A program made the translations under genes and the position numbers. A stretch of 44,080 bases of DNA. It comes from Planktothrix paucivesiculata PCC 9631 (GTDB lineage: Bacteria > Cyanobacteriota > Cyanobacteriia > Cyanobacteriales > Microcoleaceae). The stretch spans positions 508,439-552,518 of the forward strand of contig NZ_LR735018.1 of NCBI RefSeq assembly GCF_900009265.2, written 5' to 3'. Every line of letters starts with the position of its first letter. Position 1 is the first letter of the stretch. Under the pieces are notes generated by a model. It saw only the letters and a program-made list of their open reading frames with translations. It did not search any database and had not been told where the DNA came from. Below, piece after piece: positions 23,257-44,080 of the stretch.

Positions 23257-23257
23257 C

Positions 23258-23380: not shown

Positions 23381-23385
23381 TTGGT

Positions 23386-24875: not shown

Positions 24876-26915
24876 ATGAAAGTACGACTGAAAAAACAGA
24901 ATCGCCAGAAAGCAGGATCTGTCAATCCGACCGGAATTCAAGCAGAATCCCTGACAGATATTCGCCCCATGGACAACCACCTCACCACACCACAGAAACC
25001 CCAAACCGAAGATATAAACCATCAGCAAATACAGAAAAACCAGGGCTTTAATTTTGCGGAAATATCAATTTTTGCAGGTGGGGCGCAGGGGTTAACACCG
25101 AAAATACAGCCCAAATTTTTCGATCGCCCTGAAAATATAACCCAGCAAAGCAGTATTCCAATTATTCAACGCAAACTCAGCCCAGACCAAATCAAACACG
25201 CCAACCGGATTCGCAAAGCCAGAGGACTCGATCTTCTTCCTATCGAGGCAGCAAAGCAACTCAATAATGTCGAAGAAGCCACCGGGCCAGCCCCGGCTGC
25301 CAATCAACCCGTCGCTAATCAACAACCTACCCAAACACCTCATCAATCCGATGCGAAACGGTCAGAATCTAACTTCCAAGTTGTTCATGATTATTCAGGG
25401 ATTAAATCAACCTTTAAAGAATTGAAAAGCTGGGATAAAGTTAAAGAACAATTTAGTAGTGATCAGAAAACCATGTGGCAATTGTTTGACTTTCGCCAAT
25501 GGTATGTTGATTCATTGATTAGCGTCCTTCGTGATACCTATCCCGGTTTAATTGCCCAATCTGTCGGGAGCGCAGATCCCACCTCAGACTACGACATCAC
25601 AATTTCTACACCCGGTTCAGGAAAAGACGTGGAAGCAATCAAATGGTTTAATGCTCAAGTTCGTAAAGAATTTGGCGTTGAACCCGGCACAGTATTTGAT
25701 ACTAACTTATATGCCAAAAATTATCTGAAAGTTGAAGAAAATATTGACAATCAAGCTGCTATGGGGGAGCAAAAACCCGATCAAAACCTTGAGCAAGTCG
25801 AGGGCGAATTTGGTAAAATAGCTAGTCTTTCCCATGATATGGCAGCTTTAGTCAAACAACGGCGCTACATGAAGCAAGTTGAATGGGATAATTATGTTAA
25901 TCAAGTTGTTAACAATATTACAGATCCAGAGCAGCAAAAATTCACTCGTAATCAATATGAAGAAGCCGATTCTATTTATCAGATTGCCGCTTCTGAATTG
26001 CTAGGTGAAGTCAAGCAAGAAATCAATCAAGACGGAATGAGTGACGAGAAAAAACAAAGGATTCAAGAACACACAAAATTGGGTAAAGCAGAAGAAGAAG
26101 TTCTCAGCCAATTGCCGAATAACAAGTACAAGGATGAGATCCGCAAGCAATTATTAGGGGCAGAAGAATTACAGGCAATTACCCATGAAGATTCCGACTT
26201 AGTTCTGAAGAAAAGTAATGAGCTTTACCTCGACCGGATGGCTAAAGTTCGTCAACTTCAACAAACAATTCACAAGTTGGGGACGGGTGAACCCACAAAA
26301 GTTGAAGCGCTCAAAGCTCAAGTTCAACAAATGTTAGGAGAGGCGTACTTCTATGCCGCAGAAGCCTATCATAGTGAAGGCGCAGTTAAACATATTGTGG
26401 CGGGTGTACAGGGAGCTAAAAACCCAAACCAAAAGGCAGCAGTTATGAACTCTCTCAAACCCGAACATTTCTTACAATCTTTTAACGAGCAACTCGGAGA
26501 TTTTCTCAAAGATTTGAGTCATTATGCCAATGCCCATGATGGGAAAATTTTCTATCGTTCTTCTAAATATCTCTATCGTTTATTTTTGGCTGTGGCGGAG
26601 TTACGCCAGTACAAATTTAAGGATTTCCCCAGCCTACAAATAGAGTCTAAGACTGCCCATGAAATTGCTAAAGATATAGATAGTCAATTGGTAGCTATTC
26701 GTAAAGGCAATAAAAAATTTGACAGTGAAGATGAAAAGAATCAAGCAGCCGTTGATACAATGAAGGAGATTCTTGGGGTGCAGACTGCATCAGATTTAAA
26801 AGTCAAAATTTTAACAATGGCGCAGGAATTTAATGTCAAGGTTCGTAGTCAGATAACCGAACTATCGACTCCTGGTGAAAATACATCTAAGGACTATTTC
26901 ACAAATATCCAATAG
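24876..26915 (+). CDS. Putative eCIS cargo: leader plus nucleotidyltransferase-like domain, no DUF4157
   Basis: Residues 1-70 are the common cargo leader (LTDIRPMDN, then GFNFAEISI). A single QAK/IQR-like part follows (KIQPKFFD, IIQRKL). From about 190 on there is a different domain: VGSADPTSDYDITIS at 230-243 has the GS-x5-DxD signature of the polymerase-beta nucleotidyltransferase superfamily (Gly231, Ser232, Asp238, Asp240). Asp275 in TVFDTNLY is a plausible third metal ligand. The C-terminal 350 residues are helical. Related folds AMPylate proteins or modify RNA, so a toxin role is plausible. It lacks HELTH, so the leader alone may target it to the particle. The substrate is unknown. Confidence 0.65.
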   Translation: MKVRLKKQNRQKAGSVNPTGIQAESLTDIRPMDNHLTTPQKPQTEDINHQQIQKNQGFNFAEISIFAGGAQGLTPKIQPKFFDRPENITQQSSIPIIQRKLSPDQIKHANRIRKARGLDLLPIEAAKQLNNVEEATGPAPAANQPVANQQPTQTPHQSDAKRSESNFQVVHDYSGIKSTFKELKSWDKVKEQFSSDQKTMWQLFDFRQWYVDSLISVLRDTYPGLIAQSVGSADPTSDYDITISTPGSGKDVEAIKWFNAQVRKEFGVEPGTVFDTNLYAKNYLKVEENIDNQAAMGEQKPDQNLEQVEGEFGKIASLSHDMAALVKQRRYMKQVEWDNYVNQVVNNITDPEQQKFTRNQYEEADSIYQIAASELLGEVKQEINQDGMSDEKKQRIQEHTKLGKAEEEVLSQLPNNKYKDEIRKQLLGAEELQAITHEDSDLVLKKSNELYLDRMAKVRQLQQTIHKLGTGEPTKVEALKAQVQQMLGEAYFYAAEAYHSEGAVKHIVAGVQGAKNPNQKAAVMNSLKPEHFLQSFNEQLGDFLKDLSHYANAHDGKIFYRSSKYLYRLFLAVAELRQYKFKDFPSLQIESKTAHEIAKDIDSQLVAIRKGNKKFDSEDEKNQAAVDTMKEILGVQTASDLKVKILTMAQEFNVKVRSQITELSTPGENTSKDYFTNIQ

Positions 26916-27121
26916 CTTATTTTATTTGCTATAAGGTTCGAGACCAATTACAGCAACCGCCCAGGCGATCGTACGCGTCAAATCCTCTGATTTTTTCTGC
27001 TGATAAAACTAAAATTAGACTTAAGTATAGATTTGGTTGTCAATTTTATTGATACAATTAATAAAATTGTAACCCTCCTTGGTCAATGTATTAACCTGCA
27101 AGTAATTAATAGGGGCTGACT
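26781..27121 (+). repeat. Duplicated segment, copy A (cargo 3' end plus next 5' region)
   Basis: The last 45 codons of the nucleotidyltransferase-like gene and the following 200 bases up to the next cargo start are repeated at 29174-29479. That copy lacks about 35 bases (a CAGGCGATCGTACGCG-type stretch near 26961). The ends mark a unit of duplication comprising cargo tail plus cargo head. Confidence 0.85.
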
Positions 27122-28966
27122 ATGAAAATACAACTGAAAAAACAGAATCGCCATGAAGTAGAATCTGTAAATCAAACCGGAATTCAAGCGAAATCCCTGA
27201 CAGATATTCGCTCGATGGACAACGCCCTCGCCACACCGCAGAAACCCCAAACCGAAGATATAAACCATCAGCAAATACAGAAAAAACAGGGTTTTAATTT
27301 TGCGGAAATCCCGATTACAGGAAACACAGATGGGTCACCATCCAGAATACAACCTAAATTTAATTTATCCCTACAAAAAAAATTAACTGTCGGCGAGGCT
27401 GGGGATAAATATGAACAGGAAGCGGATCAGGTAGCCGAAAAAGTTGTACAACAAATTAATACTCCTTCTGGGGAACAGTCAACATCGGGTCAAGGAGTCC
27501 AACGTCAGGAAGGGGAAGAAGACGACCTGCAAATGAAACCTGATATTTCCTCAATTCAACGTCAGGAGGAAGAAGAAGAACTGCAAATGAAACCCGATAT
27601 TTCTGCAATTCAACGTCAGGGAGAGGAAGAAGAAATTCAAGCTAAATCAACCCAACTTGATCAGCAAGTTATGACTGGTGGAGACGCATCAACAGAATTA
27701 GAGACATCAATTCAAACTGCTAAAGGGGGTGGACAGCACTTAGATGGGGGACTGCAACGGTCGATGGGGCAAGCAATGGGGGCAGATTTTAGTGGGGTGA
27801 AAGTTCATACTGATGCTCAGTCTGATCAATTAAATCAATCAATTCAGGCTAAAGCTTTTACGACAGGACAAGATCTCTTCTTTCGGCAGGGAGCCTATGA
27901 GCCCAGTAGCCGAAGTGGACAGGAGTTAATTGCCCATGAGTTAACTCATGTTGTGCAGCAGAATGGGGGTGCTGTGCAGCGCCAACACGCCATCCAGCGA
28001 GAAGGCGAGGATGGCTTGGCATCGGCGAAAACACCTAAAGAAGAGGCTTTCGAGACCATTAACCGAAACAAAAAATATAAGGAAAGATTTGCGCAAGAAC
28101 TCCAAAAAATGGTGAAACGTGAAATCCCCGAAGGTGAAATGTCTCTCATCTGGCAAAGGTTTTCGTCGGCGATGAAACGGCATGAGATCTTGTTACCGCG
28201 CTGGAACGAGACCAATTGGGGCGAGGACTCTGAAAGAGCCAAAGCGGTGGATGTGACTGAAATACAGTTAGCCAAATTAGAAGCCTTCAGACAAGACATA
28301 CAGTTTCTGACTAAAATCGTAGAAACTGGTCAGGGTGAAAAGTTACAGGTTGATAATGTCACTTTATGGAGCAATATTAACATCGGTCGACCCGCCGCTA
28401 ACAGCCAAGAGTTAAACGAGCAAATGGGCGTATCAGGTGGTGGAACACCACTGAATCGGACAAGTATGGGCGCTTTGTTAGATCTCTTTGCTGTTGGGGC
28501 ACTTGAAGGCGGCAATGCAGATTTGAAGAACGTCAACGGCGATCTTTTACTGAACGACAACAACTCGTATATGCAGTGGGGAGGATCTTTTAACGTCTGG
28601 GCAGCCGTGAGTGCCAACTTTGCCGCTAAAGCTACTGGTGAGGTACATGTGTATGTACCTACGGGGACGGGGACGGGGTCTGTGTTTTGGACGGCTGAGT
28701 TACCCGAATTACGGAAAAATCCCTCCATCACGGGCATCTTTATTCACGAATTGAGTGGCGTTGGCAAAGGTGCGGTTGCCCAAGAAAAAGCCAAAACGAT
28801 TGATCAAATGGAATTGCAGACGATCCTCAAATCACCCGAAGCGTGGACAACTTCTACCATTAGTGGTCTAACGGTCACGGGATCTGGTGGCACAAAGGGT
28901 ATATCTGCGGGGAAATTGAAGAATATGGGCAACAAATGGAAAAGTAACGCAAAATCAAAATCCTGA
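27122..28966 (+). CDS. Putative eCIS cargo with DUF4157 core domain and unrecognised C-terminal domain
   Basis: Order: leader 1-70 (LTDIRSMDN, GFNFAEIPI), KLTVGEAGDKYEQEADQVAEKV near 90-115, and a short acidic repeat tract at 128-175. The eCIS-core DUF4157 domain at about 190-285 has MGADFSGVKVHTD and HELTH at 272-276 (zinc-protease-like HExxH). Residues 300-400 are helical. The final domain (about 430-614) contains SFNVWAAVSANFAAKATGEV and VFWTAELPELRKNPSITGI, which I cannot assign; it is the likely effector. DUF4157 proteins are commonly linked to eCIS as cargo. ATG follows GGGGCTGACT as in the sibling genes. Confidence 0.8.
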   Translation: MKIQLKKQNRHEVESVNQTGIQAKSLTDIRSMDNALATPQKPQTEDINHQQIQKKQGFNFAEIPITGNTDGSPSRIQPKFNLSLQKKLTVGEAGDKYEQEADQVAEKVVQQINTPSGEQSTSGQGVQRQEGEEDDLQMKPDISSIQRQEEEEELQMKPDISAIQRQGEEEEIQAKSTQLDQQVMTGGDASTELETSIQTAKGGGQHLDGGLQRSMGQAMGADFSGVKVHTDAQSDQLNQSIQAKAFTTGQDLFFRQGAYEPSSRSGQELIAHELTHVVQQNGGAVQRQHAIQREGEDGLASAKTPKEEAFETINRNKKYKERFAQELQKMVKREIPEGEMSLIWQRFSSAMKRHEILLPRWNETNWGEDSERAKAVDVTEIQLAKLEAFRQDIQFLTKIVETGQGEKLQVDNVTLWSNINIGRPAANSQELNEQMGVSGGGTPLNRTSMGALLDLFAVGALEGGNADLKNVNGDLLLNDNNSYMQWGGSFNVWAAVSANFAAKATGEVHVYVPTGTGTGSVFWTAELPELRKNPSITGIFIHELSGVGKGAVAQEKAKTIDQMELQTILKSPEAWTTSTISGLTVTGSGGTKGISAGKLKNMGNKWKSNAKSKS

Positions 28967-29479
28967 TCTAAAGTACGACAGCAGAAGAACGCAATGCACG
29001 CGGAACTTTTAGGCTTAAAGAAAAGAATAACCCAATCCGAGGAACAGACTCGTCTTGGACTATCTGGAGAAGGACAAAGAGGTGATGAAATTGACCCCTC
29101 AATACCCTAAAAAAGCGATACCTACAAAAAGTAAAATGAGAGCGGATTTTCGTTCATGAACATCATAGTAAAGCAGACTACATCAGATTTAAAAGTAAAA
29201 ATTTTAACAATGGCGCAAGAATTTAATGTCAAGGTTCGTAGTCAGATGACCGAACTATTGACTCCTGGTAGGAATACATCTAAGGACTATTTCAGAAATA
29301 TCCAATAGCTTATTTTATTTGCCATATTGCATCAAATCCTCTAATTTTTTCTGCTGATAAAACTAAAATTAGACTTAAGTATAGATTTGGTTGTCAATTT
29401 TATTGATAAAATTAATAAATAAAAATGTAACCCGCCTTGGTCAATGTATTAAGCTGCAAGTAATGAATGGGGGCTGACT
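28967..29479 (+). pseudogene. Gene-free stretch with relic of a cargo 3' end
   Basis: From 29174 it copies the end of the nucleotidyltransferase-like cargo gene (residues 636 to stop). The copy is still in frame from an ATG at 29156 to a stop at 29308 (50 residues, ending SKDYFRNIQ). The shared 5' region follows up to 29479. The first part (28967-29150) contains a 38-codon frame (28994-29110) that I cannot assign; it could be debris of another effector. No promoter or RNA gene is recognised. Confidence 0.7.
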
Positions 29480-31915
29480 ATGAAAATGCAACTGAAAAAA
29501 CAGAATCGCCATCAAGAAGAAACTGCCAATCAAACGGCTATTCAAGCGAAATCCCTGACAGATATTCGCCCAATGGACAACGCCCTCGCAGCGCCACAGA
29601 AACCCCAAACCGAAGACGCCAAAAATCCGCAGGTACAGAAAAAACAGGGCTTTAATTTTGCTGAAATCCCGATTTCAGGAAAGACAGAGGGGTCAGCAGC
29701 CAGAATACAACCTAAATTTAATTTATCCCTACAAAAAAAATTAACCGTCGGTCAAGCTGGGGACAAATATGAACAGGAAGCGGATAGTGTAGCGGAAAAA
29801 GTGGTCAAACAAATTAATACTCCTACTACAGAAAAAGCCACATCTTCTAAAGGAGTACAACGTCAGGAAGAAGAAGAAGTTCAAGCTAAACCTAATATTT
29901 CTGACCTTCAAAGACAAGGAGAAGAAGAAGAAGAAGTTCAAGCTAAACCTAATATTTCTGACCTTCAACGAGAAGGGGAAGAAGAGGAAGAAGTTCAAGC
30001 TAAATCTGATAGTTCTGCGATTCAACGAGAGGGAGAAGAAGAGGAAGAAGTTCAAGCTAAAGCTGATAGTTCTGCCATTCAACGAGAGGGAGAAGAAGAG
30101 GAAGAAGTTCAAGCTAAAGCTGATAGTTCTGCGATTCAACGAGAGGGAGAAGAAGAGGAAGAAGTTCAAGCTAAATCTGATAGTTCTGCAATTCAACGAG
30201 AGGGAGAAGAAGAGGAAGAAGTTCAAGCTAAAGCTGATAGTTCTGCAATTCAACGAGAAGGGGAAGAAGAGGAAGAAGTTCAAGCTAAAGCTGATAGTTC
30301 TGCAATTCAACGAGAAGGGGAAGAAGAGGAAGAAATTCAGGCTAAACCCCAAAATAAAGCCCTGGGTGGGGGTGCAGTTTCAACAGATATAGAAACAACA
30401 ATTCAAAGTGCTAAAAGTGGTGGAAGTCCCCTAGATGCGGGACTACGACGCAAGATGGGGAAAGCAATGGGGGCAGATTTTAGTGGAGTGAAAGTACATA
30501 CTGATAGTCAATCAGATAAATTAAATCGTTCCCTAAGTTCTCGTGCCTTTGCAACGGGGCCAAATTTGTTTTTTAAACGGGGAGAATATAATCCAGGAAG
30601 TCGAAGTGGACAAGAATTAATTGCCCATGAATTAACCCATGTTGTGCAGCAGGGAGCGGGGAGAGTAGATAGACCTCAACGCAAAGAAACTACAATTATG
30701 AGTAAGGTCAAAGCTGTTCAAAGAAAACCCCTAAAAGTCATGGAAATAACAACTGGGGCAAACTCAAATTCTTACCAACCTTTGCAACGTAAAGTCCTCG
30801 ATATCAGACCACTAGATGACTCAACAGTTACTACGAAGACAATAGGACAAACAAGAACAGAACAAATACAAAAGGGGATTACGACATACAACAAAATTCC
30901 TGCCGAAGATACGCAATACTCGCAGCAAGAAGAAGATCTAAAGAATCTTAACCAATTGGTGAAAGGTTGGTTAGCAGATAACCAACAATTTAACCGAGCC
31001 AAGCCTAAAAATGAGACGGACAAAAATAATAAAAAAAGATATAACGATTTAGATAGAGCTAGGGATGAACTGAATAAAGAATGGGACCGAGTTCAGACAC
31101 AAAGAAGAGAATCCGGGCAATTGAAAGGTGGGAAATCTCAACAGGATACAAAAGGAGAGCTTAAAAAATATTTTGGGGAGCAAGCTAAGGAGCAAGCTAA
31201 GGAAAAATTTGGAGATGATGCGAAGAAGAAAGCTGAGGCAGTTGGCAAGGAAACTGAGGGATTTCTTAAAGACCTTCAGAAAACTGTCCCGGGAAAAGAA
31301 AAAGCTAGCTCTCTTGCCACAGATGGTTTGACTTCAGCCATAGGCCACATACCTTTTCTGGGTTCTATAGGGAATTTATTAAAATCAATTGATAGTGTCC
31401 GCGATAATTATGCCGCTATGGAAGCACTGAATACGGCAAAATCTAATGCTGTATCAGAAGAGTTACAGGAAGCGACAAAACATGGTTATGGTAAAGTCCG
31501 GAGAAGATTTTTGGGATCGGTTGGTAATGTGGTGGGAGCTATTATTGACATTATCGGTGATCTTTTACTGGTTACGGGTGTTGGTGCTTTGGGTTCTGTG
31601 ATTATCAGCCTGGGAAGAGGGGTAATAACGTTAGTGCATGAGGCTTTCACCAAGGTGAAAGGACTCTACAAATTGTTAAAAGGCACGAAGGGCGTTCATC
31701 GGGAGGAAAGTGCTAAAAGGATCATTGAGAAGGCAAGGCTTGGGGAGCAACCCGCTTTGGAACTATTGGTTAAATTAAACCCCATGGGATACACAGACAA
31801 ACCATTAACCACGGAAACAATGTCTACGAAATTAAAGGGTGATCAAATTACCCACGAGCAATTGAATCAGTTTATTGAAAAATTAGCAGGGCAGTTGAAG
31901 TCACAAAATGGCTGA
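29480..31915 (+). CDS. Putative eCIS cargo with expanded acidic repeats, DUF4157 and hydrophobic C-terminus
   Basis: Order: leader 1-70 (LTDIRPMDN, GFNFAEIPI), KLTVGQAGDKYEQEADSVAEK, and eight to nine acidic repeats at 128-289. DUF4157 at about 300-400 has MGADFSGVKVHTDSQSD and HELTH at 383-387. A charged helical part at 480-600 follows. The C-terminal 210 residues have two hydrophobic, glycine-rich segments (LATDGLTSAIGHIPFLGSIG and GAIIDIIGDLLLVTGVGALG). These recall helical hairpins of pore-forming or membrane-inserting toxins, but I know no family match. The first 400 residues are nearly identical to the gene at 33713, while the C-termini are unrelated. An IS701 element sits 52 bp downstream. 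Confidence 0.8.
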   Translation: MKMQLKKQNRHQEETANQTAIQAKSLTDIRPMDNALAAPQKPQTEDAKNPQVQKKQGFNFAEIPISGKTEGSAARIQPKFNLSLQKKLTVGQAGDKYEQEADSVAEKVVKQINTPTTEKATSSKGVQRQEEEEVQAKPNISDLQRQGEEEEEVQAKPNISDLQREGEEEEEVQAKSDSSAIQREGEEEEEVQAKADSSAIQREGEEEEEVQAKADSSAIQREGEEEEEVQAKSDSSAIQREGEEEEEVQAKADSSAIQREGEEEEEVQAKADSSAIQREGEEEEEIQAKPQNKALGGGAVSTDIETTIQSAKSGGSPLDAGLRRKMGKAMGADFSGVKVHTDSQSDKLNRSLSSRAFATGPNLFFKRGEYNPGSRSGQELIAHELTHVVQQGAGRVDRPQRKETTIMSKVKAVQRKPLKVMEITTGANSNSYQPLQRKVLDIRPLDDSTVTTKTIGQTRTEQIQKGITTYNKIPAEDTQYSQQEEDLKNLNQLVKGWLADNQQFNRAKPKNETDKNNKKRYNDLDRARDELNKEWDRVQTQRRESGQLKGGKSQQDTKGELKKYFGEQAKEQAKEKFGDDAKKKAEAVGKETEGFLKDLQKTVPGKEKASSLATDGLTSAIGHIPFLGSIGNLLKSIDSVRDNYAAMEALNTAKSNAVSEELQEATKHGYGKVRRRFLGSVGNVVGAIIDIIGDLLLVTGVGALGSVIISLGRGVITLVHEAFTKVKGLYKLLKGTKGVHREESAKRIIEKARLGEQPALELLVKLNPMGYTDKPLTTETMSTKLKGDQITHEQLNQFIEKLAGQLKSQNG
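29861..30346 (+). repeat. In-frame 57-bp repeats encoding a 19-residue acidic unit
   Basis: Eight units plus a partial one encode REGEEEEEVQAKADSSAIQ with few changes (first two end in PNISDLQ). Copies 3-8 are almost identical at the DNA level, including GAAGAAGAGGAAGAAGTT, so the array can expand and contract by slippage without loss of frame. Confidence 0.95.
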
Positions 31916-31967
31916 TATCTGAAACACAATCAAAATATGGTGTTGATAGAGAATCATTTTCTCTTAG

Positions 31968-33337
31968 TGGGACTTAAACAAAAATAAGGAGCTAAATAGG
32001 TGATAATGATTATATAGCAAGCACATAACATTCAAGAATATTCAAGAATAACGAATGAAAGAGACAACCCCGGCAGCAATGCCCCCTTGCTTCGATAGAT
32101 GGTGTGGTCGATTTGACGATATTTTCAGCCATCAAGCGCAAAAACGGGAATTTAGGAACTATTTAGGGGGATTATTGGGAGAAAGTGAGCGAAAAAACCT
32201 GTCGCAAATGGCGAATAACGCCGTAGGAGTAACTTACCACCGATTACACCACTTTTTAACCGAAGCTCCTTGGTCAGCAATGAAACTAAATCAGCGTCGG
32301 CTGGAGGTGATGAATCAGTGTAAGCAAACCCAGATTAGTCGGGGATTTGCTCTAATTATTGATGATTCAGGACATCGAAAAAGCGGAAATTTTACCGATG
32401 GAGTCGGACGACAATACATCGGAGAAATCGGAAAAACCGACAATGGAATCGTAGCAGTAACGAGCCATCTATACGATGGCAAAAAAAGCTTACCATTAGA
32501 TATAGAATTATATCAAAAAGCCGAGTCATTACCCTTAGGAAAAGCCGACCCCGAATTTAAAAAGAAACCAGAAATAGCATTAGAATTAATAGAGAGGAGC
32601 TTAGACAGAGGATATCGACCGGGAATTGTGCTAACAGATGCCGGGTATGGAAATAACACAAGTTTTTTACAAGAGTTAGAGAAAAAAGGATTAAAATATA
32701 TAGGGGGAGTCGCCAAGAATCGAAAGGTAATCCTCAAAAAAGGGGAAGATGAAACCGAGGAAACTCGATTAGATAATTTAGCTAAATCGTTGCCCCAAGG
32801 AGCTTTTAGTGAAATTCAACTCCAACTGGAAAAACCCAAAACTGTGTGGGTAGCAACAAAAGAAATTGAATTATCAAAGTATGCAGGGAAGAAAGTAATA
32901 GCCATCGTCATGAATGCTGCTACTTTCGACCAAGCCAGTGATATTGATTATTTAATGACTAATGTTGAAGCTTCAAAAGCTACAGGAGAGTGGATAGTAA
33001 CGACCTATTCACAAAGAAATTGGATAGAAGTTTTTTACAGGGAAGCAAAGGGCTGGTTAGGGCTAAAAGAATATCAAGTCCGAGATAAAAGAAGTCTAAT
33101 CAGACATTGGATTTTGGTATTTTGTGCCTATACTTTTATTCTCTGGCATAGTTTAACTGGAGGGTTAAGACGTCGATGGGCGAACAAACCCTTAAACACA
33201 TTTGTTGATGCCCTTGAAGCCTTTCGCACAGCGATTTCTTTTCGATTTGTGGAGTGGCTCCAGGATAATAGGGATGTATTTGCAGCCTATAAAGCTAGTT
33301 TAGGCTTTGTTTGGTCTTAATTTTTGTTTAAGTCCCA
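31968..33337 (+). mobile_element. Complete IS701-family insertion sequence, 1370 bp
   Basis: The left end TGGGACTTAAACAAAAAT (from 31968) is the reverse complement of the right end that finishes at 33337. TTAG flanks both sides (31964-31967 and 33338-33341), a 4-bp target duplication that fits the YTAG preference of IS701. Joining the flanks restores continuous DNA from the cargo gene to the relic at 33362, so the insertion is recent. Confidence 0.93.
32055..33320 (+). CDS. IS701-family transposase
   Basis: The 421-residue DDE transposase of the IS4/IS701 group has the first Asp in FALIIDDSGHRKSG, the second in IVLTDAGYGNN and the Glu in NWIEVFYREAKGWLGL with the YREK-like spacing. The N-terminal DNA-binding part has RKNLSQMANNAVGVTYHRLHHF. 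It is intact with no frameshift and is probably functional. It shares no sequence with the cargo genes and occupies only the spacer between them. Confidence 0.95.
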   Translation: MKETTPAAMPPCFDRWCGRFDDIFSHQAQKREFRNYLGGLLGESERKNLSQMANNAVGVTYHRLHHFLTEAPWSAMKLNQRRLEVMNQCKQTQISRGFALIIDDSGHRKSGNFTDGVGRQYIGEIGKTDNGIVAVTSHLYDGKKSLPLDIELYQKAESLPLGKADPEFKKKPEIALELIERSLDRGYRPGIVLTDAGYGNNTSFLQELEKKGLKYIGGVAKNRKVILKKGEDETEETRLDNLAKSLPQGAFSEIQLQLEKPKTVWVATKEIELSKYAGKKVIAIVMNAATFDQASDIDYLMTNVEASKATGEWIVTTYSQRNWIEVFYREAKGWLGLKEYQVRDKRSLIRHWILVFCAYTFILWHSLTGGLRRRWANKPLNTFVDALEAFRTAISFRFVEWLQDNRDVFAAYKASLGFVWS

Positions 33338-33361
33338 TTAGTTAAAATCCCAGAAACAACC

Positions 33362-33573
33362 ATGAATACCAAAGCTGTTGTTACACCTATCAAAAAAAGT
33401 ACGCCGACTCCTATTCCCCAACTGTCACCAACGGTGGGATTAACCAGTGTGCGGCTGTTTGTGGATGAATCAACAGCTTTAATGGAGGAGGGAGGAAACC
33501 ACTAACTAGCAAAAATTAGCAGGTTCTCCTTGTCCCACACCGAAAATACGACCGGATCAGAATTTTAAAAAGA
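33362..33573 (+). pseudogene. Truncated relic of the giant DUF4157 cargo gene
   Basis: ATG 33362 starts a 47-residue frame, NTKAVVTPIKKSTPTPIPQ then LSPTVGLTSVR, nearly identical to the beginning of the giant gene at 36601. It stops at 33505. DNA similarity continues past the stop to about 33573 (AAAAATTAGCAGG and a match to the EIQRNQNI part), with substitutions and an indel. It is thus a decayed 5' fragment. Even the upstream AACAACC is shared, which shows a cargo-giant gene pair once existed here too. Confidence 0.85.
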
Positions 33574-36604: not shown

Positions 36605-39600
36605 ATACCAAAGCTGTTGTTACACCCGTCAAAAAAAGTACGCCGACTCCCATTCCCCAACTATCACCAACGGTGGGATTAACCAGTGTGCGGCCCTTTG
36701 CGGATGAACAACTAGCTTTAAAAGAAGATGACAGTACCAGCGAACAAAAATTAGCAGGGGCGGCTCCTCCACCACCCGAAATACAACGGAATCAGAATAT
36801 TAATTCCGGCTATAATTTTGGTCAAATTTCGATTAGTGAATATATTCCCGCCACACCGCAAGCCAAGTTAGTTGTGGGTGCGCCTGGGGATAAATACGAG
36901 AAAGAAGCCGATGCAATGGCGGATAAAGTCGTGGCGATGACGGTTCCAGTGCAGAAGCAGGAGGAGCAGGGGAGCAGGGGGAGAAGAGAAGCAGGGGGAG
37001 AAGAGGAGCAGGGGGAGCAGGGGGAGGTCAGCCTCAAACCGACAACGGACACCATTCAACCTCCACCGGAAGAAGAGGGAACCATTCACCTCAAACCCTT
37101 AACAGAAAGTATTCAACAGCGCCACGAAGAAGATGGAACCGTTCACCTCAAACCCCTAGCCCAAACAATTCAGCGATATGAACAAGAAGCAACCCTTCAC
37201 CTGAAACGGTTAAGCGGAATTCTTCAACAAAAGGAAATAGAAGGGGTCGTTCACCTCAAAGCCATAGATAACCATATTCCATCAGGGATTAGCCAAACCC
37301 TGAAACAGTCTACCTTGATCTCCCGCCAAGGAAACGGCGGATTTGCAGCCAGCGAGAATATTGAAACTCGCGTTAAAAGTAGCAAAGGCGGCGGGAACCC
37401 CCTACCGGACGAAACCCGTGGTTTCATGGAAGACAGATTTGGGAATGACTTTAGTGGGGTCAAAGTTCATACGGGTTCCGATGCGGTTCAATTAAGTAAA
37501 GATCTCGGTGCTCAAGCGTTTACCCATGAGCAAGATGTCTATTTTAATTCGGGTAAATATTCACCCCATACCGACGAAGGGAAGAAACTTCTCGCCCATG
37601 AACTCACCCACACAATTCAACAAACCGGCCCTAAAATTAAACCCAAATCTCTGAGTCGGAAAAATCAAAAAAAATCCCAAATTCAGCGTCAAATCCAACC
37701 TTCTCCGGTTAAAAATGGAGTTAAAAAAAATCCGCCCTTGAATCTCTCCGGCTTAAAAACATTACCGGAACAATCTCTACAAAAAGAAGATAAAAATAAG
37801 TCTCAACCCGCTACCTCAAAAACCGAAGAGAAAAAAGCGACGACAACCGATACTAAAGCTGAAGCCACCACCGAAACCAAGACTGAGGAAGCATCAGTTA
37901 CTAAAGGGGATACGAAAGAAACAGCCGAAACTAAGTCAGAGGAACGGAAAAAGACCGTTGACAAAGAAAAAGAAGACGCGAAGAAAGAACTCTCAGAGGA
38001 AAAGTACAGTGATGATGATAAAGGCGCTGAACTAAAAAAATATTTAGCGGCGGAATCTTTGAAAAAAGTTGAAACTCAAACCGCTAAAGTTAAGGAAGAT
38101 ACAGATACCGTTAAAAATAAAGTTAAATCCGGTGAAACTGGGGAGAATTTAGGAAAATTAGAGAAAGAAAGTGGGGAAAAAATAGAATCTCAGACTAAAC
38201 AAGAAAGTCAAGAAGCTGAAACAAAAGTTAAAGATAAAGCCGACGAAAAAGGCAAACAAGATGCAAGCGGTCAAAATCCCCCGAAAGAGAGTGTGCCGCT
38301 TCCGCTTAAAGTCGAACCCGGGGCTGTAGAAAATCCTCAAGGCCCTCTTGAGCAAACGGATCAGCCCGAAGCCGTCCCACCCATCCCGGAAGGGGAAGCG
38401 AAAATCGCCGACACTTCACCGATCGCCGTCCCCGAAGTCAGAGGTGATCAAGCGCCAACGACACCCGAAGCAGACCCCGCTTTTCAGGCAGTGATTAAAC
38501 AGTCCAAACAACAAGCCGATCAGCAGTCCAGTCACCAGTCACCCAAATCCGCCGCCGAGGAAGCCCAAACCGCCGCCCAAGATCCCGACCAACAAATGCG
38601 GGAAGCCCAAGCGACAAAAATGGATGATCTAAAGGATAAAAAACCGAAACCCTTTGACCGCAAAGTTTTTGAAGACAGTTTATTAGAAAAATTACAGTTA
38701 GTTAAACCCAAAAACGCGGATCAAGCTGATAATTTTGCTAGTAGTGGCAAAACCGATGATATTAAAAATGCTTTAAATACCGAAGTTAAAGGAGCCAAAA
38801 AAGAATCGGGCGGGGGTTTACCAGAGGAAAGTAAAGCACCCCCAGAACCGGCTGCCGAACAACCTAAAAATGTTGATGAGTTGGAACCGACTCAGGAAGT
38901 TGTGGGGGCTGTACCCCCGGAAATTGAAGCGGAAAAAGCCGTTCCCAAGCCAAAAACAGACAAGGAAATTGAAGAACCTTTAGCAAAAACAACCGAGAAT
39001 TTAGAGGGTGCGTTTGGTGAGATTCAGGCGAAGTCAATAGTTGGCTCTAGCAGTGATCCTGATGAAGTTCAAGCCGATCAAGTGGCGGAACAAGTGATGG
39101 CGACGCCCGAACCCCAATCTCTACAACTAGAACCAGAGGAATCATCAATTCAACTCTCTCTCTCGGAAACGATTCAACTGCTTCCCGAAGTCTTGATTCA
39201 ACGCAAAGAAGAAGTTAAACCCCAGTCCGTTGCCCAACCGGATTCAGAAGTTCCCCTGAATGTAGACCGTTTAGAAACCTGGAAAGATGAGGGCGGGGGG
39301 CAAGCCTTAGATGCCTTAAAAGAAGCCAAGACCCATGCTACCACAGAAGGCCCCAAAAAATTCCGTCAAGAAGAACAGGAAACCCTGACGACGGCCAAAA
39401 CTGACGCCCAGGCATCGGCTAAACAGTCCAATCAGGATATGTATGCAACTCGTACAGAGTCAATGGAGCAGACCGGAGATTCCCAAGAGGCAACCAAGAC
39501 TCAGGACGAAATTAAACGGACTGAAATTAATACCAATATCCAAAGTATTTTTGACAAAACTCAGGGGAGTGTTAAGGGTATTTTGGGGAAAATGGATAGT

Positions 39601-42600
39601 GATGTTAATACTGAGTTTAATCGCGGGATTAGTGCGGCTAAAAATGCTTTTGAAGGTCATGTTAAAAGGAGAATGGCTGAGTATAAGGATAGACGCTATA
39701 CTTTGGTATTTCCGATTAAATTACCTAAGCCTTACTGGTTTGGGATCAGAATGGTGAAAGTCGGGGAACTTCGCATTTTTGACTTTATTACCTGGATTAG
39801 AGATAAGTTTGCTGGCTTACCCGATGAAGTTAATGTTTTTTATGAAGAAGGAAAAAAACTATATATTGAAGAAGTTAAAAAAAGTATCTCTAATATTGGT
39901 GGAATTGTTGAAAAAGGATTAACCGCAGCCCAAACAGAAGTTAACCAAGGGCGAGAAAAAGTCAATGCTTATGTACAATCTTTACCAAAAGACCTGCAAG
40001 AAATTGGGGCTCAATCGGCGGCGGATGTGCAAACTAAATTTGATCAACTTGAGCAGAGTATTAGCGATAAACAAAATCAACTCCTGGAAGATTTAACTAA
40101 AAAATATCAATCTAGTTTAAAAGAACTCGATAAACGCATTGAACAGTTAAAAGCCGAAAATGCCAGCTTAATTAGTAAAGCTTTAAAATTTATTGCGGAT
40201 TTAGCTAAGAATATTATTAAAATTCTCCTCTGGCCGATTAAGAAAATGTTAAGTATTTTTATTGGATCTCTGGCCGAGGATGTGATTGATGCCCTGATCG
40301 ATGATCCGGTGCTATTTATGAAGAATCTCTTTAAAGGGATTGGAGATGGAATTAAGAATTTTGCTAATAATATTGCGAAACATTTACTCAATGGTTTAAT
40401 TACTTGGTTATTTGGTAATTTAGGAGACTTAAAACTTCCTGAAAAATTTGATTTGAAAGGATTTTTAGATATTATTTTACAGGTTTTAGGTTTAACAAAA
40501 GAATATATTTTTGGCATTGTTGAAAATATATTAGGTGGGCCAGCTACGAAATTAATTCAGTTTATTCTCGATGTTGTTCTCAAAAAAGGCCTGGATAGTC
40601 TCAACTATCTTTGGGACTTAGTTAAATTGGTCGTAGAAGCTGGCCCCGATGTGATTATGACCTTAATCAATGAAGGGGTAGAAGCCGTAGAAACTTTCCC
40701 GGATGCTGTACAGAACATCTTAGGAAGTGTTACTGGTGGCCTGGGCGGTATTCTGGGATTTGCTAAGGATTTAATCGGGTCTTTAGGAGAAGACGCCCTT
40801 GACTTTATTTCAGGCCTGCAACCGGGCGTAAAATTTATTTTCACCTTCTTTAGTACCTTAATTAAAGATGGTATATCAGGGGTTTGGGAGTTCATCAAAT
40901 CCTCTTTGGATGATATGAAAAAAATCTTCCTCAAAGGTTTGATGGAAATGGCAATTGTGGAAATTGTCAAGGGGGGGATTAGTTGGCTGATTGGGATGAT
41001 GAATCCAGCGTCAGGAATTGCTAAAATTGCTAAAGTGATTTTTGATGTGATTTGCTTTTTTGTGGAAAAACGGGAAGATATTAAACTCTTTGTCCAAGCA
41101 ATTTTAGATACTTTAAAAGCCATTTGTGACGGGACTCCGGCGGTGATGGCGATGATGATTGAACAGGCTTTGGCTAAAATGATTCCTGTTTTATTAGGAT
41201 TCTTAGCGTCTCTAATTGGTGTTGGGGGAATTCCTAGTAAAATTAAGAAAATTGTGACTACATTAAAAGCACCTGTGGATAAAACTATCGGGGGAATATT
41301 TGGAGGAGCAGCCGCTTTCTTTGGTGGCGGGAAAAGCAAGAAAGGAAAAACAGCCCGCAAAGGCAAAGGCACAAATTCTCAAGCTACAAAGGCTAAAAAC
41401 ACAAAGGCTAAAGACAAGAAAAATAAAGACAAGAAAAATAAAGATAAAAAACAACCTCAGAATGATGCCCAGAAACAAATTAAAGGCGCGGGTCATCACA
41501 CTCAAAATATAGCGAGAAATCTCCGAGATCCTGATGCCGTAGGTCAAAAACTCTCAGGAATTCAGTCTAAACATAAACTGAAACAGTTGAAGTTGACTAA
41601 AAAAGGTAAAAATAAATATCAAATTGTCGGTCAAGCGGAAGCTACTAAAGTTCAACGGTCGGCTGAATCTGCTTGGAAAGATAAGAAAAATGAACTCGTT
41701 GTCAAACAGAAAATTAAAGGGGATAAGAAGAAAGCTAGTTTGACACTAACGGCCAAATTAATGGATAAGAAAAAGATTTTGCCTAAAGTTGCTAAAAAAC
41801 TTAAATCAATTATCAAGAAAAAACCTAAAGCAAAATTAGTAAAAAGTCAACTTCCGGCTTTGAAATCTCAATATAAACTCAAAACCTTAAGTCTAAATAT
41901 CCTGAAACCCGATGGCAGTAAATATGTGATTACTGGGGTTGCTCCCGATGACGATAAATCAACAAAAGCCCAGCGCCAAGCTGCCGGAACTGATCAAATG
42001 CTTGATGCTGATTCCGGCGTAGAAACAGCGATTCAGCGTTCCCTTGGTCAAGGTCAACCCCTACCTACCCCCGTGCGGGAACCGATGGAAAATGCCTTTG
42101 GTTTTGACTTTGCCCAGGTACGGGTTCATCATGATACCGAAGGCGATCGCCTTAGTCGCTCCCTCGACGCCCGCGCCTTTACCACCGGATCTGATGTTTT
42201 CTTCCGCCAAGGTAATTATGAACCTGAAAGTCCTAGTGGTAAAAGGCTCCTCGCTCACGAACTTACCCACGTTGTCCAACAGTCCGGTGAATCCCCCCTG
42301 TTGTCTCGCACGGTGCAGCGAGTCAGTGAGGAAGTGCCTTACTTTGTTCAGAGAGAAGCAGAAAACAGTTCAGGGGATTCAGAAGCTTTAGACAAGAGTG
42401 AAAATCCCCCAAAATCCGATAAAAACAGCCAAACGTCAGCGCTTGTCGGTGCGGGACTTCTGATTGGGGGCAGTATGTTAGTATCAGGTCTTAGCATGGG
42501 TTTTGGAGGTGGCGGCGGTAAACAAAAAGAACAGGCTAATATCACTCAAAGCATTCGGGGTAATAAACTGACGATGCGGGTGATGATTACAAAACAGCAA

Positions 42601-43281
42601 GGTCAGGATGAGCAAAAAGATCAACGCAAGAAAAAAGGTTCATCCGTTGCTAATAATTTGGCTTTACCCGATGATATTGTTGATGATATCGTCACCTTAA
42701 TTCAACAAATTGTTAATCAATATCCAGACCCCGATATTGTTCAGAAAAAACTGGATAAACTCTGTGTTGATTTTGACTTAGATTTGCTGAAAGTCGTGGG
42801 TTCTGCCACTATTGGTAATAGCATCAGCTACGATATTCAGGTCAAAGGCTGTCCCCAAGAACCGACGGATGAAAATAACGCAGCGATCGCTAAAAATTTA
42901 GATAATCTCACACCTAAAGAACCTGAAACTAGACCCAGAAGCGGTAGTTTATTGGGAGGGTTGTTAAGTCAAGTATCTAAGTCTAAAAAAGACAGCAAAA
43001 CCAAAGACGGCAAAACCAAAGAAGATCAACCAGAAAAAACTCCCAAAGCTCAAGAAGAAAAGCAAAAAACTAATCCTGAAAAAACCCAAAAAGAAGCAGA
43101 AGATGACGCTAAATCTAATCAAGCTCAGGAAGAATTGGCAGACGAAAAAGAAGCTGCTAAATCTCAATCTAAGCAAGGCAATAAGCTAGGCAAAAACCCG
43201 CTTGACGTTAATACTAAAGTTAAGCGAATTGATCCTGCAACCGTTGAAATTTCTGTTCGGGCTGATCCGAAGAAAAAATAG
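36601..43281 (+). CDS. Giant eCIS-associated protein with two DUF4157 domains and a hydrophobic centre
   Basis: The protein has 2226 residues. Residues 1-85 are a divergent leader (SVRPFADEQ, GYNFGQISISE). KLVVGAPGDKYEKEADAMADKV follows, then five HLKPL-x-x-x-IQQ repeats (about 145-220). The first DUF4157 has FSGVKVHTGSDA and HELTH 333-337. A Lys/Glu/Thr-rich disordered region spans 380-790, with another QADQVAEQV-like part near 820. Residues 900-1190 are helical, and 1190-1580 is a long series of hydrophobic segments (ILLWPIKKMLSIFIGSLAED and similar). After a KKGKTARKGKG linker come small repeated alpha/beta domains. The second DUF4157 has HELTH 1886-1890, and a Gly-rich tail follows. Tape-measure or large effector function is possible. 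It is coupled by ATGA to the upstream cargo. Confidence 0.75.
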   Translation: MNTKAVVTPVKKSTPTPIPQLSPTVGLTSVRPFADEQLALKEDDSTSEQKLAGAAPPPPEIQRNQNINSGYNFGQISISEYIPATPQAKLVVGAPGDKYEKEADAMADKVVAMTVPVQKQEEQGSRGRREAGGEEEQGEQGEVSLKPTTDTIQPPPEEEGTIHLKPLTESIQQRHEEDGTVHLKPLAQTIQRYEQEATLHLKRLSGILQQKEIEGVVHLKAIDNHIPSGISQTLKQSTLISRQGNGGFAASENIETRVKSSKGGGNPLPDETRGFMEDRFGNDFSGVKVHTGSDAVQLSKDLGAQAFTHEQDVYFNSGKYSPHTDEGKKLLAHELTHTIQQTGPKIKPKSLSRKNQKKSQIQRQIQPSPVKNGVKKNPPLNLSGLKTLPEQSLQKEDKNKSQPATSKTEEKKATTTDTKAEATTETKTEEASVTKGDTKETAETKSEERKKTVDKEKEDAKKELSEEKYSDDDKGAELKKYLAAESLKKVETQTAKVKEDTDTVKNKVKSGETGENLGKLEKESGEKIESQTKQESQEAETKVKDKADEKGKQDASGQNPPKESVPLPLKVEPGAVENPQGPLEQTDQPEAVPPIPEGEAKIADTSPIAVPEVRGDQAPTTPEADPAFQAVIKQSKQQADQQSSHQSPKSAAEEAQTAAQDPDQQMREAQATKMDDLKDKKPKPFDRKVFEDSLLEKLQLVKPKNADQADNFASSGKTDDIKNALNTEVKGAKKESGGGLPEESKAPPEPAAEQPKNVDELEPTQEVVGAVPPEIEAEKAVPKPKTDKEIEEPLAKTTENLEGAFGEIQAKSIVGSSSDPDEVQADQVAEQVMATPEPQSLQLEPEESSIQLSLSETIQLLPEVLIQRKEEVKPQSVAQPDSEVPLNVDRLETWKDEGGGQALDALKEAKTHATTEGPKKFRQEEQETLTTAKTDAQASAKQSNQDMYATRTESMEQTGDSQEATKTQDEIKRTEINTNIQSIFDKTQGSVKGILGKMDSDVNTEFNRGISAAKNAFEGHVKRRMAEYKDRRYTLVFPIKLPKPYWFGIRMVKVGELRIFDFITWIRDKFAGLPDEVNVFYEEGKKLYIEEVKKSISNIGGIVEKGLTAAQTEVNQGREKVNAYVQSLPKDLQEIGAQSAADVQTKFDQLEQSISDKQNQLLEDLTKKYQSSLKELDKRIEQLKAENASLISKALKFIADLAKNIIKILLWPIKKMLSIFIGSLAEDVIDALIDDPVLFMKNLFKGIGDGIKNFANNIAKHLLNGLITWLFGNLGDLKLPEKFDLKGFLDIILQVLGLTKEYIFGIVENILGGPATKLIQFILDVVLKKGLDSLNYLWDLVKLVVEAGPDVIMTLINEGVEAVETFPDAVQNILGSVTGGLGGILGFAKDLIGSLGEDALDFISGLQPGVKFIFTFFSTLIKDGISGVWEFIKSSLDDMKKIFLKGLMEMAIVEIVKGGISWLIGMMNPASGIAKIAKVIFDVICFFVEKREDIKLFVQAILDTLKAICDGTPAVMAMMIEQALAKMIPVLLGFLASLIGVGGIPSKIKKIVTTLKAPVDKTIGGIFGGAAAFFGGGKSKKGKTARKGKGTNSQATKAKNTKAKDKKNKDKKNKDKKQPQNDAQKQIKGAGHHTQNIARNLRDPDAVGQKLSGIQSKHKLKQLKLTKKGKNKYQIVGQAEATKVQRSAESAWKDKKNELVVKQKIKGDKKKASLTLTAKLMDKKKILPKVAKKLKSIIKKKPKAKLVKSQLPALKSQYKLKTLSLNILKPDGSKYVITGVAPDDDKSTKAQRQAAGTDQMLDADSGVETAIQRSLGQGQPLPTPVREPMENAFGFDFAQVRVHHDTEGDRLSRSLDARAFTTGSDVFFRQGNYEPESPSGKRLLAHELTHVVQQSGESPLLSRTVQRVSEEVPYFVQREAENSSGDSEALDKSENPPKSDKNSQTSALVGAGLLIGGSMLVSGLSMGFGGGGGKQKEQANITQSIRGNKLTMRVMITKQQGQDEQKDQRKKKGSSVANNLALPDDIVDDIVTLIQQIVNQYPDPDIVQKKLDKLCVDFDLDLLKVVGSATIGNSISYDIQVKGCPQEPTDENNAAIAKNLDNLTPKEPETRPRSGSLLGGLLSQVSKSKKDSKTKDGKTKEDQPEKTPKAQEEKQKTNPEKTQKEAEDDAKSNQAQEELADEKEAAKSQSKQGNKLGKNPLDVNTKVKRIDPATVEISVRADPKKK
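36957..37026 (+). repeat. GGGGAGCAG-type simple repeat inside the coding region
   Basis: The stretch GCAGGAGGAGCAGGGGAGCA and on consists of AGCAGGGG/GGAGAAG units like intergenic cyanobacterial simple repeats. Here it is translated to EEQGSRGRREAGGEEEQGEQGE within the giant protein without breaking the frame. It probably arose by insertion or slippage. Confidence 0.7.
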
Positions 43282-43421
43282 AGTTTCCTTACTTTCCAAA
43301 ACTGGACTTATCTGGGTTGATTTAGACTAAAGTAGAATAGGATTTGTACAGAAATCATGTAATACTAACGGCAACATCAACGGTAAGTTTCTCAGGGTCA
43401 GTCTAATTCAGGGGCATGGTT
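43282..43421. other. Spacer between the giant gene and the last cargo gene
   Basis: 140 bases with no gene. The conserved cargo 5' motif of the earlier genes is not recognisable here except for a purine-rich CAGGGGCATGG just before the start, so this gene may have its own control. Confidence 0.5.
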
Positions 43422-44080
43422 ATGAAAGCATTTCAACGAAAACGGAATATTCAAAACACCCATCATGATATTCAGCCTGTCCAGGCACAATTTCAGTCCC
43501 GTCCCTTTGCAGAACCGCAAGCAGAAACGAAGTCAGTTAGTGAAAATACTTCCTCTTTACAGTCGGGAAACTCTAAACCAGGGTTTAACTTTGCCGAAAT
43601 TCCCCTTTATCCAACACAACCTCAAGTTACTGCACCCGTTCAACCTAAATTTACCTTCGCTCAAGCTAAATTAGAATCAGGTATTGTCCAACGGGAAGAA
43701 CAGGAAGAAGAACCTCAAGCTAAATTAGAATCAGGTGTTGTCCAACGTTCAGAAGAAGATGATGAACCTCAAGCTAAATTAGAATCGGGTATTGTCCAAC
43801 GGGAAGAACAGGAAGATGAGCCTCAAGCTAAATTAGAGTCGGGTATTGTTCAACGTTCAGAAGAAGAAGAAGAACCTCAAGCTAAATTAGAATCAAGTAT
43901 TGTCCAACGGGAAGAACAGGAAGATGAGCCTCAAGCTAAATTAGAGTCGGGTATTGTTCAACGTTCAGAAGAAGAAGAAGAACCTCAAGCTAAATTAGAG
44001 TCGGGTATTGTTCAACGCTCAGAAGAAGATGATGAACCTCAAGCGAAATTAGAGTCGGGGATTGTTCAACGGGGAGAACA
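43422..44080 (+). CDS. Putative eCIS cargo, N-terminal part only (runs off the window)
   Basis: The frame from ATG 43422 (or in-frame ATG 43416) is open to the end of the window, 219 codons. The leader KAFQRKRNIQNTHHDIQPVQ, then QSRPFAEPQ and GFNFAEIPLYP, has the same two motifs as the other cargo genes, followed by VQPKFTF. From residue 81 it is a tandem array of 18-residue units QAKLESGIVQRSEEEEEP. These carry the same QAK and VQR landmarks as the 19-residue units of the other proteins, but at a different period. A DUF4157 domain and effector domain are expected beyond the edge but not seen. Confidence 0.8.
   Translation, partial: MKAFQRKRNIQNTHHDIQPVQAQFQSRPFAEPQAETKSVSENTSSLQSGNSKPGFNFAEIPLYPTQPQVTAPVQPKFTFAQAKLESGIVQREEQEEEPQAKLESGVVQRSEEDDEPQAKLESGIVQREEQEDEPQAKLESGIVQRSEEEEEPQAKLESSIVQREEQEDEPQAKLESGIVQRSEEEEEPQAKLESGIVQRSEEDDEPQAKLESGIVQRGE
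43662..44080 (+). repeat. In-frame 54-bp repeats encoding an 18-residue unit
   Basis: Seven complete units (starting 43662, 43716, 43770, 43824, 43878, 43932 and 43986) and a partial eighth are cut by the window end. Two unit types alternate: QREEQEEEP/QREEQEDEP and QRSEEEEEP/QRSEEDDEP. This alternation points to duplication of a two-unit block. Confidence 0.95.

Follow-up and report, generated by a model that had tools for sequence, protein, structure and literature searches.

A two-motif N-terminal leader on six predicted cargo proteins, encoded beside an eCIS-type injection machine of Planktothrix paucivesiculata PCC 9631, probably serves as the loading address of cargo for this cyanobacterial type of eCIS, mainly that with a long Pvc16, and can precede many different effector bodies, both those that include a DUF4157 domain and those that lack one. 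This reading, drawn from sequence comparison, has its direct basis in the N-terminal place of the leader, its occurrence almost only in eCIS genomes, its presence on unrelated bodies and both with and without DUF4157, one homologous protein pair that differs in the leader, and the likeness of its second motif to an element of the DUF4157 core. The window, the whole stretch of 44,080 nucleotides that was analysed, holds the machine genes and the six cargo genes (Table 1). A Pvc15-type AAA ATPase, identified as Pvc15 from the locus, is thus present in the locus of the leader, and a PDB sequence search with the Pvc16 protein gave no match at E<=0.01.

Both motifs were found in all six proteins, the first at residues 26-33 and the second at residues 54-76. 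Motif 2 reads GFNFAEI in five proteins and GYNFGQI in cargo 5, and did not occur in any of 200,000 composition-matched random 90-mers, which confirmed the two-motif leader that a preliminary description had proposed for six eCIS-adjacent proteins; a loosened motif 1, [IVS]R[PS][MFI], occurred in 1.0% of 200,000 random 90-mers. Motif 1 as originally written fits five of the six N-termini, cargo 2 having IRSM instead of IRP, and the motif as first defined proved to be the local form of a broader degenerate pattern, which in 19 profile rows is roughly R-P/G-F followed by G-H/F/Y-N/D-F-x-x-I-x-I/V/L with a gap of 16-53 residues. Counted between the motif 1 R and the motif 2 N, the spacing in the window is 29 residues in five proteins and 41 in cargo 5. 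The leader lies at the very N-terminus, as do PVC/Afp-type signal peptides (about 50-70 aa or somewhat longer), and is hydrophilic and slightly basic, with a mean hydropathy of -0.05 to -1.29 over residues 1-35 and a net charge of +3 to +5 over 30 aa in the six proteins. The hydropathy scan of the six leaders revealed no Sec/Tat-type hydrophobic h-region near the N-terminus, the longest hydrophobic run being 2-4 residues. In one structure model, built from an alignment of only 5 sequences, pLDDT was about 34-48 in the leader vs about 88-94 in the core.

Table 1. Features of the window (positions in the 44,080-nt stretch)
Feature	Position	Strand	Remarks
AAA ATPase with winged-helix part, Pvc15-like	15512..17473	-	domain match; Pvc15 identity from locus, not from a family model
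Long Pvc16-type cap protein	17563..18834	-	Pvc16_N plus about 230 further residues
LuxR/GerE-type response regulator	18848..19795	-	
Contractile sheath	20012..21838	+	sequence nearest to solved sheath chain PDB 8bky
Three tube-type (gp19) genes	22045..23910	+	22045-22566, 22747-23256, 23314-23910
Cargo 1	24876..26915	+	leader and effector body; no PF13699; homologous bodies with DUF4157 in relatives
Leader 1	24876..25118	+	on 679-aa cargo without DUF4157
Cargo 2	27122..28966	+	leader, DUF4157 core, C-terminal body
Leader 2	27122..27361	+	motif 1 = IRSM
eCIS_core (DUF4157) of cargo 2	27740..27970	+	
Remnant: second copy of cargo 1 3' end	29173..29326	+	94% identical to 26780-26933; frame broken
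Cargo 3	29480..31915	+	leader, 57-nt repeats, DUF4157 (30428-30661), C-terminal body
Leader 3	29480..29719	+	
Transposase (DDE_5) between cargo genes	32055..33320	+	
Remnant: leader of cargo 5 (36601) type	33352..33489	+	89% identical to 36591-36728
Cargo 4	33713..36604	+	leader, DUF4157 (34490-34720), Ntox11 toxin domain
Leader 4	33713..33952	+	
Cargo 5	36601..43281	+	2226 aa; leader, long middle part, two DUF4157 cores (37399-37629, 42058-42291)
Leader 5	36601..36864	+	GYNFGQI, wider spacing
Cargo 6	43422..44080	+	truncated by window end, then assembly gap
Leader 6	43422..43661	+	

The distribution of the leader was assayed with a profile of 19 leaders on cyanobacterial genomes outside profile construction, with the cap gene Pvc16_N as the eCIS marker. 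In this test, set beforehand as one that could refute the assignment, Pvc16_N was present in 45 of 46 new genomes with a leader match (44/44 at E<=1e-4) in an independent second draw, and about 370 genomes without Pvc16_N yielded only two weak matches at E<=0.01. The leader mostly accompanies, as far as gene content indicates, eCIS whose Pvc16 is long (400-511 aa). Of the long-Pvc16 genomes in the first draw, 15/20 had the leader vs 0/12 others, a partly circular comparison because the A2 rows derive from 12 of those genomes, whereas the second draw is independent. Long-Pvc16 genomes without a leader match numbered 5/20 and 25/67 in the two draws, and the DUF4157 proteins examined near short Pvc16 genes have other N-terminal starts, two genomes excepted. 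A strict rule that the leader occurs only with long Pvc16 was rejected, since three strong matches in two genomes have a 295-300 aa Pvc16 frame as the nearest; two weak matches also adjoin short Pvc16. The leader, at first described as a cyanobacterial eCIS signal, is thus nearly restricted to eCIS genomes but not general among them. Its proposed use for finding unlinked cargo brought up only the six leaders and one remnant in its own genome, but in other genomes it retrieved cargo-like genes that lack DUF4157, among them L342, which seems to be located away from CIS genes.

Two proteins of cyanobacterium FACHB-63 (L215 and L242) carry an HDFS-type motif 2. PF13699 (DUF4157) was present in 15/15 named genomes among the best 80 loci of the genome scan, and 17/27 N-termini from these best-80-loci genomes have FF within the first 100 residues, another leader type. 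The profile, which is purely cyanobacterial and whose empty results elsewhere are uninformative by themselves, matched 0/148 genomes in the phylum to which a Desulfobacterales MAG belongs and 0/149 in the class that includes a Cyclobacterium, 19 of the latter containing PF13699. Scans of IMG/VR with Pvc16 and with leader alignment A1 gave no confirmed relative. No proteome of particles from a strain with the leader was found in the literature. In Anabaena PCC 7120, which lies outside the best 80 loci of the genome scan, mass spectrometry of purified particles identified the DUF4157 proteins Alr3311/Alr3312, according to passages of one report (PMC8894136).

Leader and DUF4157 are separable, as initially claimed: cargo 1 gave no PF13699 match at E<=0.5, and 21 examined leader proteins in many genomes lack the domain (12, plus 9 of the 27 leader frames from a further 20 stretches). 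These cases led to rejection of the idea that the whole leader is no more than a conserved beginning of DUF4157. Seven of the 21 carry a domain over the Pfam cut-off, these being RNAse_A_bac, Lipase_3, PG_binding_1, Peptidase_M15_4, OmpA, Agro_virD5 and PT-HINT, and 14 carry none. Because most examined leaders sit on DUF4157 proteins (18 of the 27 frames still carry it), part of the association between leader and eCIS is the known association of DUF4157 with eCIS. In the window, PF13699 matched cargos 2 to 5, with five cores in these four proteins. The frame of cargo 6 leaves the window and then enters a run of N, and contig C139 of the same assembly has one end within an LESGIVQR repeat also found in cargo 6. 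Cargo 6 very probably has DUF4157, because the C139 frame continues into this domain and shares 97.4% identity with residues 160-850 in the complete cargo 6 orthologue of genome G432, in which PF13699 is present.

The body of cargo 1 carries a nucleotidyltransferase-like signature, GSADPTSDYDI, as judged by eye; a PDB sequence search with this protein gave no match at E<=1, and its fold predicted alone had a mean pLDDT of 41, too low to use. This body occurs without DUF4157 here and in G466, and is joined to DUF4157 in Oscillatoria PCC 7112 (by Pfam) and in G345, G320, G335, G321 and G331 (core by the HExxH pattern), the copies in G320 and G335 having an N-terminus without a profile match. The C-terminal body of cargo 2 gave a weak ADP-ribosyl cyclase match below the cut-off. 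A homologue of this body on a Pseudanabaena plasmid is 89% identical (290/327), and the core is conserved too, whereas its leader is identical at only 17/73 positions and is closer to the leaders of another Pseudanabaena. This is the only clear leader exchange (2/16 pairs, which have one P. galeata protein in common, the own eCIS of P. galeata not being seen).

The leaders of cargos 1 to 4 are 62-84% identical pairwise over 75 aa, vs 27-40% for pairs involving or between those of cargos 5 and 6, and are recent copies by local duplication, as judged from their alignment; therefore, the six leaders amount to about three independent cases. The repeated block of 300 nt begins 66 nt upstream of the four start codons, so that upstream DNA and leader recur four times as one unit, and remnants of the cargo 1 3' end and the cargo 5 leader lie between the genes, all of which would suit a shared N-terminus left over from tandem multiplication through recombination in a conserved 5' part, with no role in loading. 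Such a relic is nevertheless quite unlikely, given that dozens of genomes contain the two-part pattern, that the bodies behind it are unrelated, that the leader differs where the body is almost unchanged, and that genomes lacking Pvc16_N are nearly devoid of it. A role after firing, for example in guiding cargo to a membrane or inside the target cell, is less probable still: basic, disordered N-termini can serve as targeting sequences, but the six leaders have no hydrophobic membrane segment, and the leader type follows, at least partly, the machine of the producer rather than the effector.

Motif 2 resembles the conserved DUF4157 core element FGxDFSxVxVH. One explanation of this likeness is a pro-part, in which motif 2, as a copy of the core element, docks on the core or the toxin and keeps it shut until delivery; this appears unlikely, since the 21 proteins above bear the leader with no core and the leader is unstructured in the five-sequence model. 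A more plausible, though tentative, explanation is that motif 2 could be a portable copy or mimic of a docking element of DUF4157, leader and DUF4157 being two forms of one handle for the same loader. The leaders would then form a set of addresses, comprising RPF/NF, RPF/NLLEKLI (Pseudanabaena) and, alongside other CIS machines, FF-repeat and LQRxxGN. On transfer, a toxin gene would exchange its leader to suit the machine of its new host.

As a loading address, the leader would comprise about 60-120 hydrophilic residues that begin with a positively charged part and have predicted disorder, with a short R-P-F type motif followed by one of the G-x-N/D-F-x-x-I-x-I type. The best candidate for the putative loader is the Pvc15-like AAA ATPase, possibly together with the long Pvc16 cap; the loader would bind this flexible N-terminus and thread the cargo into the tube ahead of firing.

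Comparable arrangements appear in the available passages of several reports. PVC cargo is described there as loaded by disordered N-terminal signal peptides of 50-70 aa with the help of Pvc15 (PMC11495950). PVC/Afp-type signal peptides and the leader are alike in being N-terminal, hydrophilic, found on diverse effectors and encoded in a locus with a Pvc15-type AAA ATPase; the former are disordered, as is predicted for the leader, and can be grouped by sequence (PMC11495950, PMC11297309). Unlike them, the leader is a recognisable, profile-searchable two-motif sequence across many genera, and its loading role is a predicted one. Cgo1 and Cgo2 of AlgoCIS, located in the tube lumen, are described as having a common disordered N-terminus, DUF4157 and differing C-termini, a likeness to the window cargos by description rather than sequence; both carry DUF4157, whereas the leader also occurs without it (PMC8894135). 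Tme of Streptomyces davawensis, as described, resembles cargo 5 in size and layout only (>2000 aa, N-terminal DUF4157, CIS locus), but another DUF4157 lies close to the C-terminus of cargo 5 (PMC11126660). Effectors with eCIS_core/DUF4157 (PF13699) share toxin-type C-termini with the window cargos, according to the parts available (PMC8213781), and the function of DUF4157 in eCIS is described in such parts as not known (PMC8213781, PMC11297309). The leader precedes the core of these effectors as an element of its own, and also occurs alone.

MIX and RIX are marker motifs of type VI effectors, and the leader would resemble them in role, as a cargo-flagging motif of an injection machine, though of another machine. 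Being nearly confined to eCIS genomes and also found without DUF4157, the leader, which a profile can search for, offers a means of listing cargo that is encoded away from the machine and lacks the DUF4157 mark, as well as a defined peptide with which binding and loading could be assayed. The mimic relationship, if true, would account for cargo keeping or losing DUF4157, and a common partner of motif 2 and the DUF4157 core, if there is one, would hint at the role of DUF4157.

Behind an eCIS cluster comprising an AAA ATPase (Pvc15-like), a long Pvc16 (the cap gene), a LuxR-type regulator, a sheath gene and three tube-type genes, six large genes stand in a row. As the preliminary description had reported, the proteins of all six (cargo 1 to cargo 6) begin with a common leader, in which an R-P-F-type motif (motif 1) is followed by a GFNFAEI-type motif (motif 2). 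The eCIS core domain PF13699 (DUF4157) was found in four of the six, with two copies in cargo 5. The first four leaders are near copies of one another (62-84% identity over 75 aa), and identity is 27-40% in every pair that includes the leader of cargo 5 or cargo 6. The row seems, judged from its sequence, to have grown by duplication with swapping of the C-terminal effector bodies, because four copies exist of a 300-nt DNA block beginning 66 nt upstream of the start codon, cargo 2 is followed by a broken 3′ end of cargo 1, and a remnant leader of the cargo 5 type precedes cargo 4. Apart from a transposase, no frame of at least 100 aa was found between the cargo genes, and hence an immunity gene of such length is not evident. 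Cargo 6 is cut by the window end and a run of N, and its remainder, with DUF4157, most likely lies on contig C139; the frame's apparent continuation, noted by eye, into an unrelated protein is probably an assembly effect.

Coordinates of the cargo genes and of other features (window positions unless another stretch, L, is named)
Feature	Coordinates	Remark
Long Pvc16	17563-18834	about 230 residues behind Pvc16_N without Pfam match; no PDB sequence match
Cargo 1	start 24876	
Cargo 2	start 27122	
Cargo 3	start 29480	
Cargo 4	33713-36604	Ntox11 toxin domain, 93.8 bits (cut-off 25)
Cargo 5	start 36601	
Cargo 6	43422-44080; L007:3855-9671	seems continued through the N gap into a kinase/phosphate-binding-type protein
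Tube-like gene (by eye)	L007:10026-10535	beside giant repeat frame
Giant frame of PLQKQSDSTINPTESSDSTDI-type repeats	L007:10548-16649	largely N in the assembly; adjoins tube-like gene
Giant frame of PLQKQSDSTINPTESSDSTDI-type repeats	L008:2-6550	largely N in the assembly; on contig C139
Leader protein without DUF4157 (the L118 gene)	L342:6199-8898	899 aa; AFNFAEIPIF

The claim that the leader is separable from DUF4157 was borne out by 21 leader proteins without a PF13699 match. Twelve were frames chosen as containing no PF13699 hit (0/12 matched), and in three of them, L118, the 291-aa L125 frame and the second L117 frame, the leader scored weakly (E 0.0007-0.008); nine were among 27 leader frames from another 20 stretches, which were selected by eye in a second hit list, and none of these nine had PF13699 at E≤0.5. 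Domains over Pfam cut-offs were present in seven of the 21 (RNAse_A_bac, Lipase_3, PG_binding_1, Peptidase_M15_4, OmpA, Agro_virD5 and PT-HINT) and absent from the other 14; the PT-HINT pretoxin domain is that of L322. Motif 1 is doubled in the leader proteins L323 and L336. The L342 protein is a possible unlinked cargo, since over several kb to either side no gene looks CIS-like by eye.

The body of cargo 1 recurs behind a DUF4157 core in Oscillatoria PCC 7112 (E 3e-32, core by Pfam) and in G345, G320, G335, G321 and G331 (core by HExxH pattern). G466 has, as in the window, the leader and this body with the core absent, and the core was also unseen in a distant second homologue of G320 and G335 and in the G344 homologue. 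The G345 copy matched the leader profile (E 2e-4); in the G320 and G335 copies the basic N-terminus gave no match to it, and the leader is therefore not constant across all cargo 1 relatives. Cargo 1 and nine inspected homologues share a GS..TSD(Y/I)D signature, which we take to suggest a putative polymerase-beta-type nucleotidyltransferase; the Pfam search gave no profile support for this identity.

Among 291 genomes of the window's phylum (cyanobacteria, to judge by named relatives), 37 encode PF13699. Read by eye, many N-termini of these proteins follow the same plan in degenerate form (a basic start, R-P/G-F, a linker, F-G-H-N/D-F/I-S-x-I-x-I/L, and usually QxKLTxGxPxDKYEQEAD and the core), and others lack it. 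A profile of 19 leaders (A2) matched 16 of the 291 at E≤0.01, and 15 of these belong to the 32 genomes with Pvc16_N, the cap domain taken as the marker of eCIS genes; the remaining match, in G082, has an internal stop and is weak (E 0.007). As A2 stems from 12 genomes of this draw, a second draw of 290 genomes, 207 of them new according to their handle numbers, was taken as the test that counts. Pvc16_N was present in 45 of the 46 new genomes with the leader at E≤0.01, and in 44/44 at E≤1e-4. The roughly 370 distinct genomes without Pvc16_N in the two draws together (259 + 111, again counted by handle number) gave two matches, G082 and G441 (E 0.004), against about four expected from chance alone with a per-genome E of 0.01. 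The profile check placed almost all matches in genomes with eCIS genes. A2 matched 0/148 and 0/149 genomes in two other groups, an empty result uninformative alone.

The preliminary reading as a cyanobacterial eCIS signal held for the link to eCIS in cyanobacteria, but the leader goes mostly with one kind of machine, not all. The frames with Pvc16_N are mostly either long, at about 415-511 aa, or short, at about 190-235 aa, with some intermediates; this length serves as a label of convenience for machine type. The leader was found in 15/20 (first draw) and 42/67 (second) genomes with long Pvc16, versus 0/12 and 3/29 (2/29 at E≤1e-4) without it (Fisher p 3e-5 and 1.5e-6, uncorrected for kinship); of the two at the stricter cut-off, G448 has no listed frame, and G471 has one of 214 aa that is possibly a fragment. 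For 28 of 31 strong leader matches the nearest listed Pvc16 within 20 kb is the long form, and for the remaining three (G098 and G164) it measures 295-300 aa. On short-Pvc16 contigs of nine genomes (G057, G061, G088, G113, G164, G171, G194, G248 and G286; paired by eye), DUF4157 proteins carry other N-termini, of the LQRxxGN, FF-repeat or AIGTRSTR type; G088 has both kinds, each closer to its own Pvc16. An exception is formed by tandem frames of ~100 aa, little more than leader, beside short Pvc16 (three in G402, two in G381). These lie between the sheath and the short Pvc16 gene (G402:C78, L340; G381:C52, L341) and are possibly peptide cargo or decoys. On DUF4157 proteins with other CIS machines, FF repeats occur in, e.g., L022, L061, L062, L216, L228 and L232, LQRxxGN in, e.g., L035, L039, L050, L066, L069 and L076, and AIGTRSTR in, e.g., L045 and P0009.

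A Pseudanabaena galeata plasmid protein (OA858_RS23475) shares 290/327 body residues and 85-95% of the core with cargo 2, versus 17/73 of the leader. Three proteins of Pseudanabaena ABRG5-3 with other bodies have leaders more similar to that of the plasmid protein (30/78, 33/73 and 32/78); the eCIS locus of ABRG5-3 has the window's gene order and a 420-aa DUF4255 (Pvc16) protein. Such exchange was seen in 2/16 pairs with bodies at least 60% identical, both involving the P. galeata protein; leader identity is at least 0.55 in the remaining 14. This one case is of the kind that would be expected if the host's machine reads the leader.

Motif 2 resembles an element of the core, GxDFSxVxVH, at which the motif-2 matrix matched best beyond the first 110 residues in 94/114 DUF4157 proteins (chance expectation 0.9; the proteins are related, so this is not a p-value). 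Comparison of profiles from 58 leader and 74 core segments gave 92% probability and a score of 23.0, where 100 column shuffles reached no more than 14.0; both sets were pattern-chosen, which raises the score. In a model of cargo 2 from five window sequences, the core has a pLDDT of about 88-94 and the leader one of about 34-48, low values that, from so small an alignment, are in keeping with disorder.

PMC11297309 describes eCIS toxins as marked by hydrophilic, disordered, basic N-termini, with no specific conserved sequence detected in those of PVC and Afp, and gives 18 predicted toxins for a Moorena genome; PMC11495950 describes disordered, groupable signal peptides of 50-70 aa in connection with Pvc15. 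Cargo precedents are given in PMC8894135, PMC8894136, PMC11126660 and PMC8213781. The literature covered, which excluded bioRxiv preprints and the bulk of subscription papers, yielded no description of the two-motif leader. Collectively, this is a real, portable N-terminal leader of cyanobacterial eCIS cargo, mostly with long-Pvc16 machines, and a novel form of the known eCIS signal peptides, for which loading is the best, and a probable, explanation.
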